A DNA stretch of 35,000 nucleotides from an uncultured Bacilli bacterium (GTDB taxonomy: Bacteria > Bacillota_I > Bacilli_A > RF39 > UBA660). The DNA lies in contig CALVTC010000008.1 of the NCBI GenBank assembly GCA_944359885.1, positions 1 to 35,000 of the forward strand, given 5' to 3'. Of the stretch, positions 1,987-18,062 are shown piece after piece; positions within the stretch are counted from its first letter, which is position 1, and the number at the start of each line of letters is the position of its first letter. The translations under genes were made by a program, and so were the position numbers. The notes beneath the pieces were generated by a model. The model searched no databases, was not told the origin of the DNA, and saw only the letters and a list, made by a program, of their open reading frames with translations.

Positions 1987-3138
1987 CTAACAGACTCGAT
2001 ATTGCCATATCATTTGATTACCACATTTCGGACAAGTTAATGGATCAATATCGAAATCTTTCATAATCATTAATCTCCACTTATTAAGAGAATCTCTTAA
2101 TATATGAGTTTGTGATTTGATTAACATAATCATTTTATCATGAAATTTGTGTTTTTTAGAATAAATACCATAATATCGAACAGTTTTAAAATTTTCATCG
2201 GGGATATGGATAATTAGTCTTTTAAAAAAATCGTATACATGAATACGTTCTTTAATAATTTTATTATCTTCATGTCTTCGATACCAAAAAGTTATATGTT
2301 CTCCATCATAATCTAGGATTCTAGATTCAGCCATGGCAGGTTTACCAGTATATCTTACAGCATATTCAATCATATTTTGAGTAGACTGATTACACTTTTT
2401 TTCAGCATAAACATAAAACCCTTTATCTGATTTTTTATAGATAAAATTTTTAAGAACTTTAAATTTTTTAGAATTAAGAACTTTTTCCAATAAATCTAGA
2501 AGTATTTTTTGAAATCTTTTTCTTAAAACGTTATAGGGAATAAAGTCAAACTTTTTAAAGATATTAATATCTCCCATGGCACCCTCAGTTACAATAGTAT
2601 GGATATGAGGGTGCCATTTCATATCTCTACCATATGTGTGTAAAACAGCTATGATACCAGGAGTATATTTTTGAGATTTATATTTATCTTTAAACCAAGA
2701 AAGAATTGTTTGAGAAACAGCTTGAAAAAGCAAATCCAGAAGTTTTCTATCCTTGCGAAAAAAATCCCATAGATAATCTGAAATAGTAAAAACAATGTGT
2801 CTGTGTTTACAGTTATAACATTTTTGTAAAATTGCCTCTGTTCTTTTTCTGACATATTTATTACCACAAGAAGGGCAAAATCTAGATTTGCAGGTATGGT
2901 ATGAAAATTTAATTTCTCCACAATCAGGACATTCATAAACAGAATAGCCGAGTGCAGAAGTACGGCAAGAAAGCATTTTGTCTACTTCTTTTAATATAAC
3001 AGGTCTAATATTCAAATGAGAATTATCTTTAATAAAGTTATCCCAATGGTCATTAAAAATATCTTTTAACCTAAATTTAATGGTTCTGTCTTTATAAAAA
3101 TTGGCATCATACCACTCGATTATTTCATATATATACAT
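1987..3138 (-). CDS. IS91-family transposase (HUH, Y-transposase)
   Basis: Rolling-circle transposase that nicks single-stranded DNA at the element end and joins it to GAAC/CAAG targets. Seen: an N-terminal zinc-binding domain (ECPDC near residue 70 and CKSRFCPSC near 85-95), the HUH metal motif in WHPHIHTIVTEG around residues 176-188, and the conserved YAVRYTGKPAMAESRIL block near residues 265-283 that should hold the catalytic Tyr. A last CPKCGNQM knuckle lies at the C-terminus. About 383 residues is the usual length. The ATG at 3138 is preferred over the GTG one codon upstream; neither has a good ribosome site, as often in transposases. The downstream zinc-ribbon gene is coupled to it. Confidence 0.92.
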   Translation of the reverse strand: MYIYEIIEWYDANFYKDRTIKFRLKDIFNDHWDNFIKDNSHLNIRPVILKEVDKMLSCRTSALGYSVYECPDCGEIKFSYHTCKSRFCPSCGNKYVRKRTEAILQKCYNCKHRHIVFTISDYLWDFFRKDRKLLDLLFQAVSQTILSWFKDKYKSQKYTPGIIAVLHTYGRDMKWHPHIHTIVTEGAMGDINIFKKFDFIPYNVLRKRFQKILLDLLEKVLNSKKFKVLKNFIYKKSDKGFYVYAEKKCNQSTQNMIEYAVRYTGKPAMAESRILDYDGEHITFWYRRHEDNKIIKERIHVYDFFKRLIIHIPDENFKTVRYYGIYSKKHKFHDKMIMLIKSQTHILRDSLNKWRLMIMKDFDIDPLTCPKCGNQMIWQYRVC

Positions 3139-3181
3139 CACAATATAAGTATATCAAATTATGGTGATGGCCGAAAGGCGC

Positions 3182-14278: not shown

Positions 14279-14304
14279 TAGCAAATTACAAGTATACTTT
14301 AAGA

Positions 14305-14495
14305 TGTAAATAATTTAATATTTATATCTTATTTTTTTGTGTTAAATTATTTACTAAGAATTTAAGTGAGAACGGCAAATTACAAAGGTCTTAGAATCTA
14401 ACAAATTGACAGTTCAGCTTTTATTTCTATTATTAATTTAGTTTAAGATAGTGAGGTCATTAGAATCTATATAACAGGCTTGATGAAATAATAGT
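14305..14495 (+). ncRNA. Putative IS110 bridge RNA, copy 1
   Basis: Guide RNA expected to bridge target and donor DNA for the transposase. A 5' stem is formed by GTAAATAATTTAA (14306-14318) and TTAAATTATTTAC (14342-14354), 13 bp perfect. Loop 1 (stem GAAC 14370-14373 with GTTC 14412-14415) carries GCAAATTACAA (14375-14385), equal to the left target, and AAATTG (14403-14408), complementary to CAATTT of the right target. Loop 2 (stem CTATTATT 14427-14434 with AATAATAG 14487-14494) carries AGATAGT (14446-14452), equal to the element's right end, and CTTG (14479-14482), complementary to CAAG at its left end. Both loops contain GGTC(A)TTAGAATCTA between the guides. Ends are estimated from the junction promoter and the last stem. 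Confidence 0.75.
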
Positions 14496-14531
14496 GGAAA
14501 CAGGAGACTTAAATTCAGAAAGGAGTAAGTA

Positions 14532-15734
14532 ATGAAATCAGTATTAAGTGTAGATGTAGCTAAAGGAAAAAGTATGGTAATGTTATCTACAGAGTATGGT
14601 GAAGTATTAATTGAACCAAAAGAAGTTAAACATAATTCAAAAGATTTTGATAATATAAAAAATCAAATCAATAATTTTAAATTAGAGGATTTAACAATAT
14701 TCATGGAGTCAACAGGAATTTATCACTTACCAGTAGAAAGGTATTTTAAAGAAAATGGTTTTAATACTTTAGTTATTAATAGTTTAACTACTAAAAATAA
14801 TTATGATACTTTAAGAAAAACAAAAACAGATACTAAAGATTGTATTAGATTGGCTAAGCTATTTTTTGTCAATGAAGTGAAATACCATGATTTATCAAAA
14901 AAAGATTTGTATGCAAATTTAAAAGCTATGACAAGGCAATATTTTTATTTAACCCAGTTAAATGTTAGTTGTAAAAACAGATATAAAAGATTAATTAATA
15001 TTTGTTTTCCGGAGTTTGAGGAAATATTTAAAGGAAGTAGAATCTATGAAGAAACAGCTTTAAACTTTATAAAAACATTCCCACATGCTTATATTGTTAA
15101 GGAAAAAAGAATTGATGCTTTATATAATAATTTATATAAAACCAATTCTAGGCATGATTATTATTACAAAAGACTAGCAAATAAGATTAAAGAAGTTTCT
15201 ATTGATTCATATCCAGGAGTAGATAAAGATCATTCAGATGTTAAAAATTTATCAGATATGGCAAGTATTTTACAAGAAAATATTAAGACAATAAATGACT
15301 TAAAAGAAAAGATGATTGAAACAGCAAAAAAATCCCCTTATTTTGATATTATTAATTCATTCTATGGTATTGGAGAAACATTAACAACTGAATTACTAGG
15401 AGAACTTGGAGATATAACTAGATTTGATAATCATAAACAACTAATTGCTTTTTGTGGCTTAGATCCAACAATTATACAATCAGGAAAAAGTATTAATGTT
15501 CGTGGAACAATATCTAAACGAGGAAATAAATATGCAAGGTGGATATTATTTAATATTAGTCAAATGGTAGTTAAATTAGGTCATCAGTGTCCTAATCATC
15601 CAGTATATAATTATTATTTAATAAAAAAAGCAGAAGGCAAACATTACTATGAAAGCCTAACTGCATGTTCAACAAAAATATTAAGAATGTTATATACAAT
15701 GTGCAAAAATAATACAACATTCAAAATAAATTAA
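14532..15734 (+). CDS. IS110-family transposase (DEDD recombinase), copy 1
   Basis: RNA-guided recombinase of 400 residues. The N-terminal RuvC-like domain has Asp8 (SVDVAKG), Glu59 (FMESTGIYH), Asp100 and Asp103 (KTDTKDCIRLAK). A helical middle part follows. The C-terminal Transposase_20 domain starts at about residue 275 (YGIGETLTTELLGELGDI) and contains the region with the conserved serine (QSGKSINVRG...ISKRGNKYARW, around 317-332). AAAGGAG precedes the ATG. It is identical to the copy at 16372. It should act with the upstream RNA on a circular intermediate. No frameshift or missing catalytic residue is seen. Confidence 0.95.
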   Translation: MKSVLSVDVAKGKSMVMLSTEYGEVLIEPKEVKHNSKDFDNIKNQINNFKLEDLTIFMESTGIYHLPVERYFKENGFNTLVINSLTTKNNYDTLRKTKTDTKDCIRLAKLFFVNEVKYHDLSKKDLYANLKAMTRQYFYLTQLNVSCKNRYKRLINICFPEFEEIFKGSRIYEETALNFIKTFPHAYIVKEKRIDALYNNLYKTNSRHDYYYKRLANKIKEVSIDSYPGVDKDHSDVKNLSDMASILQENIKTINDLKEKMIETAKKSPYFDIINSFYGIGETLTTELLGELGDITRFDNHKQLIAFCGLDPTIIQSGKSINVRGTISKRGNKYARWILFNISQMVVKLGHQCPNHPVYNYYLIKKAEGKHYYESLTACSTKILRMLYTMCKNNTTFKIN

Positions 15735-15767
15735 CAAATTAATTTTATCATATATATTACTATAATA

Positions 15768-15805
15768 CACGAAAATTTAAAAAAATGTCTATTTTCGTGA
15801 TTTTT
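15768..15805 (+). terminator. Terminator of IS110 transposase, copy 1
   Basis: CACGAAAAT (15768-15776) and ATTTTCGTG (15791-15799) make a 9-bp perfect stem, followed by ATTTTT. Confidence 0.75.
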
Positions 15806-15836
15806 GACGTGGTATAATATTTTTATAAATTTAGTA

Positions 15837-15857
15837 TTGACAAAACTTAGATAGTCA
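15837..15857 (+). promoter_or_regulatory. Right-end half of the IS110 circle-junction promoter
   Basis: A perfect -35 TTGACA (15837-15842) lies 13 bases inside the right end. If the element closes into a circle over one CA, these 13 bases plus CA plus AG make a 17-base spacer to TATACT at the left end (14293-14298). This creates a strong promoter that would start the bridge RNA near 14305. The same pair exists in copy 2 (17677-17682 and 16133-16138). IS110 elements are known to form such junction promoters. Confidence 0.8.
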
Positions 15858-15877
15858 ATTTATGGAGTTGATAATAA

Positions 15878-16124
15878 ATGAATAAAGAAATATTTATTAT
15901 CCAATATAGATAAAGTTCATACTACTGAAATGGGTATTGATAGAATTAAGAAAAATCTTAAATTGGATACTAATGATGTAGTTGAATACTGTAAAAATAA
16001 AATATTAGACAAAGACTGTAATATTTATAAACAAGGAAAGAATTGGTATTGCAAAATTGATAATATAAAAATAACTATTAACTCATATAGTTATACAATT
16101 ATAACAGCACATATTATTCACTAA
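15878..16124 (+). pseudogene. DUF3781-family gene with one-base insertion
   Basis: Small protein between the two IS110 copies. ATG 15878 (MNKEI) reads into TAG/TAA after 11 codons. The long frame with the DUF3781 pattern (HTTEMGIDRIKKNLKL, VVEYCKNKILDKDCNIY, KQGKNWYCKIDN, YSYTIITAH) runs to 16124. Removing one T from the TTT at about 15892-15894 joins them into 81 residues, MNKEILLSNIDKVHTTEMG at the start. The ribosome site GGAG is the last sequence at the right border of IS110 copy 1. The stop codon overlaps AAATTACA, the insertion site of copy 2. Function of the family is unknown. An assembly error is possible. Confidence 0.75.
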
Positions 16125-16144
16125 ATTACAAGTATACTTTAAGA

Positions 16145-16335
16145 TGTAAATAATTTAATATTTATATCTTATTTTTTTGTGTTAAATTATTTACTAAGAA
16201 TTTAAGTGAGAACGGCAAATTACAAAGGTCTTAGAATCTAACAAATTGACAGTTCAGCTTTTATTTCTATTATTAATTTAGTTTAAGATAGTGAGGTCAT
16301 TAGAATCTATATAACAGGCTTGATGAAATAATAGT
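16145..16335 (+). ncRNA. Putative IS110 bridge RNA, copy 2
   Basis: Identical in sequence to the RNA of copy 1, shifted by 1840 bases: target guide GCAAATTACAA at 16215-16225, right guide AAATTG at 16243-16248, donor guide AGATAGT at 16286-16292 and CTTG at 16319-16322. The identical program explains why both copies inserted at AAATTACAATTT. Confidence 0.75.
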
Positions 16336-16371
16336 GGAAACAGGAGACTTAAATTCAGAAAGGAGTAAGTA

Positions 16372-17574
16372 ATGAAATCAGTATTAAGTGTAGATGTAGC
16401 TAAAGGAAAAAGTATGGTAATGTTATCTACAGAGTATGGTGAAGTATTAATTGAACCAAAAGAAGTTAAACATAATTCAAAAGATTTTGATAATATAAAA
16501 AATCAAATCAATAATTTTAAATTAGAGGATTTAACAATATTCATGGAGTCAACAGGAATTTATCACTTACCAGTAGAAAGGTATTTTAAAGAAAATGGTT
16601 TTAATACTTTAGTTATTAATAGTTTAACTACTAAAAATAATTATGATACTTTAAGAAAAACAAAAACAGATACTAAAGATTGTATTAGATTGGCTAAGCT
16701 ATTTTTTGTCAATGAAGTGAAATACCATGATTTATCAAAAAAAGATTTGTATGCAAATTTAAAAGCTATGACAAGGCAATATTTTTATTTAACCCAGTTA
16801 AATGTTAGTTGTAAAAACAGATATAAAAGATTAATTAATATTTGTTTTCCGGAGTTTGAGGAAATATTTAAAGGAAGTAGAATCTATGAAGAAACAGCTT
16901 TAAACTTTATAAAAACATTCCCACATGCTTATATTGTTAAGGAAAAAAGAATTGATGCTTTATATAATAATTTATATAAAACCAATTCTAGGCATGATTA
17001 TTATTACAAAAGACTAGCAAATAAGATTAAAGAAGTTTCTATTGATTCATATCCAGGAGTAGATAAAGATCATTCAGATGTTAAAAATTTATCAGATATG
17101 GCAAGTATTTTACAAGAAAATATTAAGACAATAAATGACTTAAAAGAAAAGATGATTGAAACAGCAAAAAAATCCCCTTATTTTGATATTATTAATTCAT
17201 TCTATGGTATTGGAGAAACATTAACAACTGAATTACTAGGAGAACTTGGAGATATAACTAGATTTGATAATCATAAACAACTAATTGCTTTTTGTGGCTT
17301 AGATCCAACAATTATACAATCAGGAAAAAGTATTAATGTTCGTGGAACAATATCTAAACGAGGAAATAAATATGCAAGGTGGATATTATTTAATATTAGT
17401 CAAATGGTAGTTAAATTAGGTCATCAGTGTCCTAATCATCCAGTATATAATTATTATTTAATAAAAAAAGCAGAAGGCAAACATTACTATGAAAGCCTAA
17501 CTGCATGTTCAACAAAAATATTAAGAATGTTATATACAATGTGCAAAAATAATACAACATTCAAAATAAATTAA
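16372..17574 (+). CDS. IS110-family transposase (DEDD recombinase), copy 2
   Basis: All 400 residues equal the transposase at 14532, with the same DEDD residues (Asp8, Glu59, Asp100, Asp103) and the C-terminal serine region. Ribosome site AAAGGAG as in copy 1. Because both copies are intact, either can supply the enzyme. No difference was seen that would tell which inserted first. Confidence 0.95.
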   Translation: MKSVLSVDVAKGKSMVMLSTEYGEVLIEPKEVKHNSKDFDNIKNQINNFKLEDLTIFMESTGIYHLPVERYFKENGFNTLVINSLTTKNNYDTLRKTKTDTKDCIRLAKLFFVNEVKYHDLSKKDLYANLKAMTRQYFYLTQLNVSCKNRYKRLINICFPEFEEIFKGSRIYEETALNFIKTFPHAYIVKEKRIDALYNNLYKTNSRHDYYYKRLANKIKEVSIDSYPGVDKDHSDVKNLSDMASILQENIKTINDLKEKMIETAKKSPYFDIINSFYGIGETLTTELLGELGDITRFDNHKQLIAFCGLDPTIIQSGKSINVRGTISKRGNKYARWILFNISQMVVKLGHQCPNHPVYNYYLIKKAEGKHYYESLTACSTKILRMLYTMCKNNTTFKIN

Positions 17575-17607
17575 CAAATTAATTTTATCATATATATTAC
17601 TATAATA

Positions 17608-17645
17608 CACGAAAATTTAAAAAAATGTCTATTTTCGTGATTTTT
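17608..17645 (+). terminator. Terminator of IS110 transposase, copy 2
   Basis: Same 9-bp stem as in copy 1 (CACGAAAAT / ATTTTCGTG) followed by ATTTTT. Confidence 0.75.
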
Positions 17646-17715
17646 GACGTGGTATAATATTTTTATAAATTTAGTATTGACAAAACTTAGATAGTCAATT
17701 TATGGAGGAATACTA

Positions 17716-18050: not shown

Positions 18051-18062
18051 AAATTACAATTT
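18051..18062 (+). other. Predicted empty IS110 target site
   Basis: AAATTACAATTT equals the sequence obtained by removing the IS110 copies from their sites (AAATTA + CA + ATTT). It matches both guides of the putative bridge RNA. Like the two occupied sites it sits right behind the stop codon of a small gene, in the same orientation. Confidence 0.6.

Follow-up and report, generated by a model that had tools for sequence, protein, structure and literature searches.

The window, a stretch of 35,000 nucleotides from contig 8 of a 1.37-Mb MAG (73% complete, 98 contigs), contains two copies of what is, with a probability of about 0.95 as read from the sequence, an insertion sequence of the IS110 group whose left end carries a bridge RNA, the guides of which would base-pair to donor and target DNA. 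By means of these guides the predicted RNA would state where the element inserts, namely in gaps just after genes in the case of the window's element and at gene switch-on sites in the case of its sister elements. The guides can be read with confidence because relatives supply natural swaps for all four of them. An AT-rich branch of gut Bacilli/Clostridia is thereby added to the programmable RNA-guided recombinases, and the sister clades offer a clear-cut natural example of guides directed to a core promoter element. This makes directly testable how RNA-guided transposons spare their host by site choice and how they switch targets.

Elements and insertion sites

The element described in the earlier note, copy 1, is real, and a second element, unmentioned there and 100% identical to the first, was found in the window (Table 1). 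Each has a length of 1,567 bp, which includes one core. The limits were set by comparison of the two copies with about 70 relatives of 30-97% identity, which came from GTDB contigs and from genomes belonging to the window's genus, family, order and class. In all relatives the divergence of the flanks begins right outside a short shared segment, which in the window's clade reads (C/T)AAATTA-CA at the left junction and CA-ATTT at the right one, with CA as the core. In the congener G867, sequence 97% identical to the left flank of copy 1 runs directly into the uninterrupted empty site GCAAATTACAATTT. Since this site equals the left half, the core and the right half joined, there is no duplication beyond the core; insertion at a core dinucleotide without a longer target duplication is the IS110 mode. 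Rather unlikely is the alternative that both copies are inactive relics and that the pair stems from duplication or misassembly instead of two insertions: the assembly is indeed an incomplete MAG of 98 contigs, but neither reading frame is disrupted, the two are 100% identical, the sequences to the left of the copies are unlike each other as far as the target half that they have in common, and in the congener copy 1's site is unoccupied.

The 271 bp separating the copies (15858-16128) hold a short reading frame, the stop codon of which overlaps the left target of copy 2. Unoccupied perfect sites AAATTACAATTT are present only twice in the window's own assembly, once at 18051-18062, about 350 bp downstream of copy 2. 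The window additionally contains an IS91-family transposase gene at 1987-3141 on the minus strand (NF033538, 321 bits). At E 1e-40 no relatives of the element were found in plasmid and phage collections.

Table 1. Features of the two IS110-family elements in the window.
Feature	Positions	Strand	Basis or remark
Copy 1, IS110-family element	14291-15857	+	limits set by two copies and about 70 relatives
Left target half (LT), copy 1, GCAAATTA	14281-14288	+	relatives' flanks diverge just outside AAATTACA; empty site in G867
Core dinucleotide CA, copy 1 left junction	14289-14290	+	common to both junctions; once in empty site
TATACT, -10 half of putative junction promoter	14293-14298	+	RE-LE junction sequence
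Predicted bridge RNA, about 212 nt	14305-14516	+	conserved structure with compensatory changes
5' stem-loop of bridge RNA	14305-14354	+	both folds; sequence differs between clades
Closing helix P1, 5' strand	14358-14364	+	pairs with 14510-14516; encloses both guide loops
Target-binding loop (TBL)	14370-14415	+	stem GAAC/GTTC 14370-14373 / 14412-14415; inner hairpin 14386-14389 / 14396-14399
Left target guide (LTG), GCAAATTACA	14375-14384	+	tracks LT, z 8.3, within-clade z 5.1
Right target guide (RTG), AAATTG	14403-14408	+	tracks RT, z 6.7, within-clade z 3.3
Donor-binding loop (DBL)	14427-14494	+	stem CTATTATT/AATAATAG 14427-14434 / 14487-14494; inner hairpin 14454-14457 / 14465-14468
Left donor guide (LDG), AGATAGT	14446-14452	+	equals element right end in 52/52 relatives, four sequence states
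Right donor guide (RDG), CTTG	14479-14482	+	complement of LE CAAG/CAGG/CATG/CACG; non-core bases 66/66
Closing helix P1, 3' strand	14510-14516	+	ends 4 nt before AGGAG of recombinase gene
IS110 recombinase, copy 1, 400 aa	14532-15734	+	NF033542, PF01548, PF02371
TTGACA, -35 half of putative junction promoter	15837-15842	+	RE-LE junction sequence
Right end / left donor TTAGATAGT	15847-15855	+	end comparison; LDG match
Core CA and right target half ATTT, copy 1	15856-15861	+	junction comparison; empty site
Left target half (CTAAATTA) and core CA, copy 2	16121-16130	+	flank comparison
Copy 2, IS110-family element	16131-17697	+	100% identity to copy 1; left flank differs
Copy 2 bridge RNA (predicted)	16145-16356	+	identical to copy 1
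Copy 2 recombinase gene	16372-17574	+	identical to copy 1
Core CA and right target half ATTT, copy 2	17696-17701	+	junction comparison

Structure of the predicted bridge RNA

As in the IS110 group, the RNA region lies in the left end of the element, with 241 bp before the gene versus 121 bp after it. The proposed folding of this part into a 13-bp 5' stem (14306-14318 / 14342-14354) and two guide loops was recovered by both folds (14305-14495 and 14292-14531). The proposed RNA end at 14495 had to be corrected, as it cuts off the 3' strand of P1, and the structured RNA runs to about 14516.

Conserved structure in an alignment, proposed in the earlier note as a check, was found for 41 RNAs of three clades. 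The consensus of 39 pairs, composed of P1 and of the stem and inner hairpin of both the target loop and the donor loop, has 97.7% of its cells paired, and 18 of the 39 pairs show changes on both sides; none of 500 shuffles was as good as the real alignment, and slid controls were paired at 43-53%. P1 is replaced wholly between clades and is still paired (GAATTTA/TAAATTC in the window's clade, GTTTGA/TCAAAC and CGATTGA/TCAATCG in the sister clades), some P1 columns of group 2 being broken by the alignment. The target-loop stem changes in a compensatory manner from GAAC/GTTC to GGGC/GCCC and AGGC/GCCT, and an AGGT...ATCT hairpin is present in each loop. Folding of the single sequence was only mildly better than that of shuffles (z -1.28 for 14305-14495, z -1.98 for 14292-14531) and is unconvincing alone; support for the predicted RNA comes from the alignment of relatives and from the covariation of guides and flanks, not from the single-sequence fold. 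Rfam 15 gave no match in the window, and membership in the bridge RNA family therefore rests on the published descriptions and the relatives.

Two short motifs were observed besides. In nearly all relatives the 3' end of the RDG is overlapped by TGATGA (or TGATAA; 14481-14486 in the window), which is similar to the box C motif that the TIGR-Tas work reports for IS110 guide RNAs. The left ends of groups 2 and 3 (L068-L124, e.g. L074) contain an internal TATAAT or TAGAAT box just 5' of a strong hairpin, which is possibly a second bridge RNA promoter in the inserted state.

Covariation of the guides with target and donor DNA

All four guide assignments of the earlier note hold: the LTG is identical to the left flank plus core (14281-14290), the RTG is complementary to CAATTT (15856-15861), the LDG equals the right element end (15849-15855) and the RDG is complementary to CAAG (14289-14292). 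Whether guide changes track changes of the insertion flanks, a further check named there, was analysed in about 70 relatives, and each of the four guides, distributed over two loops, tracks the DNA that it should read. The RDG and the left end occur as CTTG with CAAG, CCTG with CAGG, CATG with CATG and CGTG with CACG, the two non-core bases matching in 66/66 cases, and the LDG is identical to the right end in 52/52, in the states AGATAGT, AGAAAGT, AGAATGT and AGATTGT. The LTG and the left target are identical at 90.4% over 7 nt versus 61.9% for shuffled pairings (z 8.3; within clades z 5.1), and the RTG agrees with the right target at 86.3% versus 54.3% (z 6.7; within clades z 3.3), these shuffles ignoring phylogeny and the independent changes being fewer than the rows. 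With distinct pairs only, z is 5.5 for LT/LTG and 4.1 for RT/RTG overall, and 3.6 and 1.9 within clades, the last value being weak (p 0.04). Several elements have been re-aimed naturally and match their own changed flanks, namely L085 (AGTATACCA), L109 (ATTGTACCA), L023 (AACTTACA), L028 and L038 (both CAAGTT) and L072 (CATGAGAA).

The opposite case, the same RNA beside unrelated flanks, had been named as one that would speak against the guides and was seen in only few relatives. Within the window's clade, guide and flank differ at two or more positions in 3/37 left junctions (L011, L024, L032) and in 3/29 right junctions (L025, L031, L032). The left junction of L011 has an unrelated flank and TA instead of the CA core in an otherwise typical element, possibly owing to a later rearrangement.

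It is very improbable that the protein picks the target and that the agreement of guides and flanks reflects shared descent. The clades do differ in both proteins and targets, and the shuffles take no account of phylogeny, but the concordance holds within clades (z 5.1 and 3.3), and the close relatives L066, L085 and L109 of group 2 (about 90% aa identity) differ in guide and flank together. Equally improbable is the reading that the region is a leader whose structure serves the recombinase gene as attenuator or in translation control and which matches flanks and ends by chance: the genome is AT-rich, P1 ends 4 nt before the recombinase Shine-Dalgarno sequence and the single-sequence z is only -1.3 to -2.0, but each of the four guide segments covaries with a DNA site of its own, and a leader is not expected to switch from CTTG to CCTG, CATG or CGTG precisely in step with the element end. 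Guides that read DNA are thus the preferred reading.

In place of the core CA, the LDG is followed by GA, GG or AG in all relatives, while in the target loop CA is followed by the same linker as that after the LDG. The core is hence inside the pairings of the LTG, RTG and RDG but not of the LDG. The GA in place of CA had been regarded as a weak point; it is present, but it is not an error and is fixed across the clade, and the LDG stopping before the core is a stable clade-wide trait and not damage. In IS621 the core is included in all four guide pairings (PMC11208160), a mode of that element which is not part of the IS110 family definition.

Recombinase and comparison with known systems

The recombinase matches NCBIfam NF033542 at 178 bits (cutoff 140) as well as PF01548 and PF02371 and has a DEDD RuvC-like domain and a Transposase_20 domain with a catalytic serine, as is typical of IS110. 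Sequence matches to the IS621 and ISCro4 structures place E59, D100, D103 and S317 at catalytic positions, whereas D8 was read from the sequence. The protein has 400 aa versus 328 residues of the IS621 chain in the PDB, of which 85 and 70 residues are alignable. The ISCro4 recombinase (PDB 9t56) is the second-best sequence match among solved structures, in a comparison that concerns the protein only and in which only the C-terminal domain aligns (E 9e-5).

Bridge RNAs of IS621 and the IS110 group have been described (Durrant 2024, PMC11208160; Hiraizumi 2024, PMC11208158), and the IS621-type layout that had been proposed for the window's element applies, apart from the enclosing helix and from the LDG, which in every relative ends short of the core. 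In both systems the RNA lies in the left end and consists of a 5' stem-loop, a target loop and then a donor loop, the LTG and LDG read the bottom strand and the RTG and RDG the top strand, and there are a core dinucleotide, a DEDD plus serine recombinase, TBL handshake bases that could pair with the donor and a promoter, putative in the window's element, at the joined ends. Unlike IS621, the window's element has a different target and CA instead of CT as core, and its P1 encloses both loops, a helix not described for IS621 in the parts of the two reports that were covered (PMC11208160, PMC11208158).

For ISEc21 and ISEc11, target choice is likewise guided by a non-coding RNA (seekRNA; Siddiquee 2024, PMC11187229), and natural re-aiming between related elements is documented (ISEc11/ISXne4). 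ISEc11 differs from the window's element in that it is a member of the IS1111 group and has its RNA in the right end, and the reported seekRNAs are shorter (PMC11187229). The IS1111 arrangement, an RNA in a long right end and subterminal inverted repeats of 7-17 bp, was not found, as the RNA of the window's element is in the left end and only ATA...TAT occurs near the junction. With TIGR-Tas (PMC12045711) the element shares paired short guides, and its C-terminal domain matches the TIGR-Tas model at 45 bits, below the cutoff of 100; unlike in that system, a DEDD recombinase domain and element ends are present, and no tandem guide array with a Tas protein was seen. Assignment of the window's element to the known IS110 bridge-RNA kind, with small structural differences, is well supported.

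Predicted junction promoter and proposed mechanism

When the right end (RE) and the left end (LE) are abutted, TTGACA-17-TATACT results in 32/32 members tested of the window's clade and TTGACA-17-TATAAT in 18/18 of group 3. On the level of sequence, the RE-LE junction promoter of the IS110 group is thus predicted to be present; a promoter formed by joining of the ends is likewise described for IS621 (PMC11208158). The AC following the RTG (14409-14410) is complementary to the terminal GT of the donor, as expected for a TBL handshake guide. Full DBL handshake pairing in the window's clade was rejected: the fixed AT 3' of the RDG does not pair with target position 7, and the IS621-type DBL handshake is therefore absent on the RDG side.

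In the proposed mechanism, excision would join the right end to the left end and create the putative promoter, which would transcribe the bridge RNA from about 14305. One loop of this RNA would hold the donor junction by LDG and RDG, while the other would hold the target AAATTA-CA-ATTT by LTG and RTG. The guides would be read by base pairing, in line with their changing together with DNA ends and flanks in the relatives. The DEDD/serine recombinase would, by analogy to IS621, exchange strands at the CA core and leave no duplication beyond it. The guides would be aimed at recurrent gene-edge motifs, i.e. AT-rich gaps after stop codons in the window's clade and extended -10 boxes in the sister clades.

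Genomic context of the targets

Insertion is linked to the -10 box in both sister clades (about 50% aa identity). Read on the opposite strand, their left target together with the core is TGnTATAAT, and in 29/29 cases the elements sit at this extended -10 box and carry guides for it. T, G, -12T, -11A and -9A do not vary in any of the 29, and the differences are confined to n and to those -10 positions that are variable in promoters, apart from one case at the last base. A Shine-Dalgarno sequence and a start codon follow 10-40 nt downstream of the box in 24/25 testable cases, versus 13/51 unoccupied TGnTATAAT in the same flanks (Fisher p 2e-9) and 4.7% of random positions (p 5e-31). The genes hit are mostly unrelated, their 26 proteins forming 25 sequence clusters. 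We infer that the host gene is kept expressed and that the guide evolved for that reason; the purging of insertions at other sites would add to the pattern. The left junctions at which the box reads away from the element are those of L003, L065-L076, L078, L082-L086, L093-L124 and L136-L139. Among distant relatives from other families of the class, L136, L137 and L139 have the same -10 target and L135 a variant, a nearby start being detectable in only one of these four. A left end that supplies an outward -35 hexamer (TTTACA at 17 bp) to the promoter hit was considered and rejected as a general rule, as it occurs in 9/29 with one TTCACA in addition, most of group 3 having TTACTA.

In the window's clade, a divergent gene start on the left was found in 1/38 elements, and 22/40 have a stop codon no more than 25 bp upstream, compared to 3% at random and 27/106 in a motif-matched control. 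A reading of this clade's target as a -10 box (TACAAT) was discarded, because the Shine-Dalgarno sequence would fall on the transcription start. In the tree the window's elements group together as a single clade, which has group 2 as its weakly supported sister (84/72) and is nested among the -10 targeters under a midpoint root. One re-aiming is therefore the simplest history, and the window's clade was probably re-aimed once. It appears likely, though well short of settled, that the original guide of the lineage matched the extended -10 box (reverse complement of TGnTATAAT), that insertion at diverse housekeeping promoters left box and gene intact, and that the window's clade was then re-aimed a single time to AT-rich post-stop sites. 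If this is true, the guide repertoire would evolve toward recurrent gene-edge sites that tolerate insertion. Nothing relevant on IS110 targeting of -10 boxes or hybrid promoters was found in the literature searched, the partial coverage of which makes this weak evidence of novelty.

A second IS110 element of about 50% aa identity with a -10-type guide (L003) is located on contig 17 of genome G000, the same genome, and two differently aimed bridge RNAs would therefore be present in one cell.
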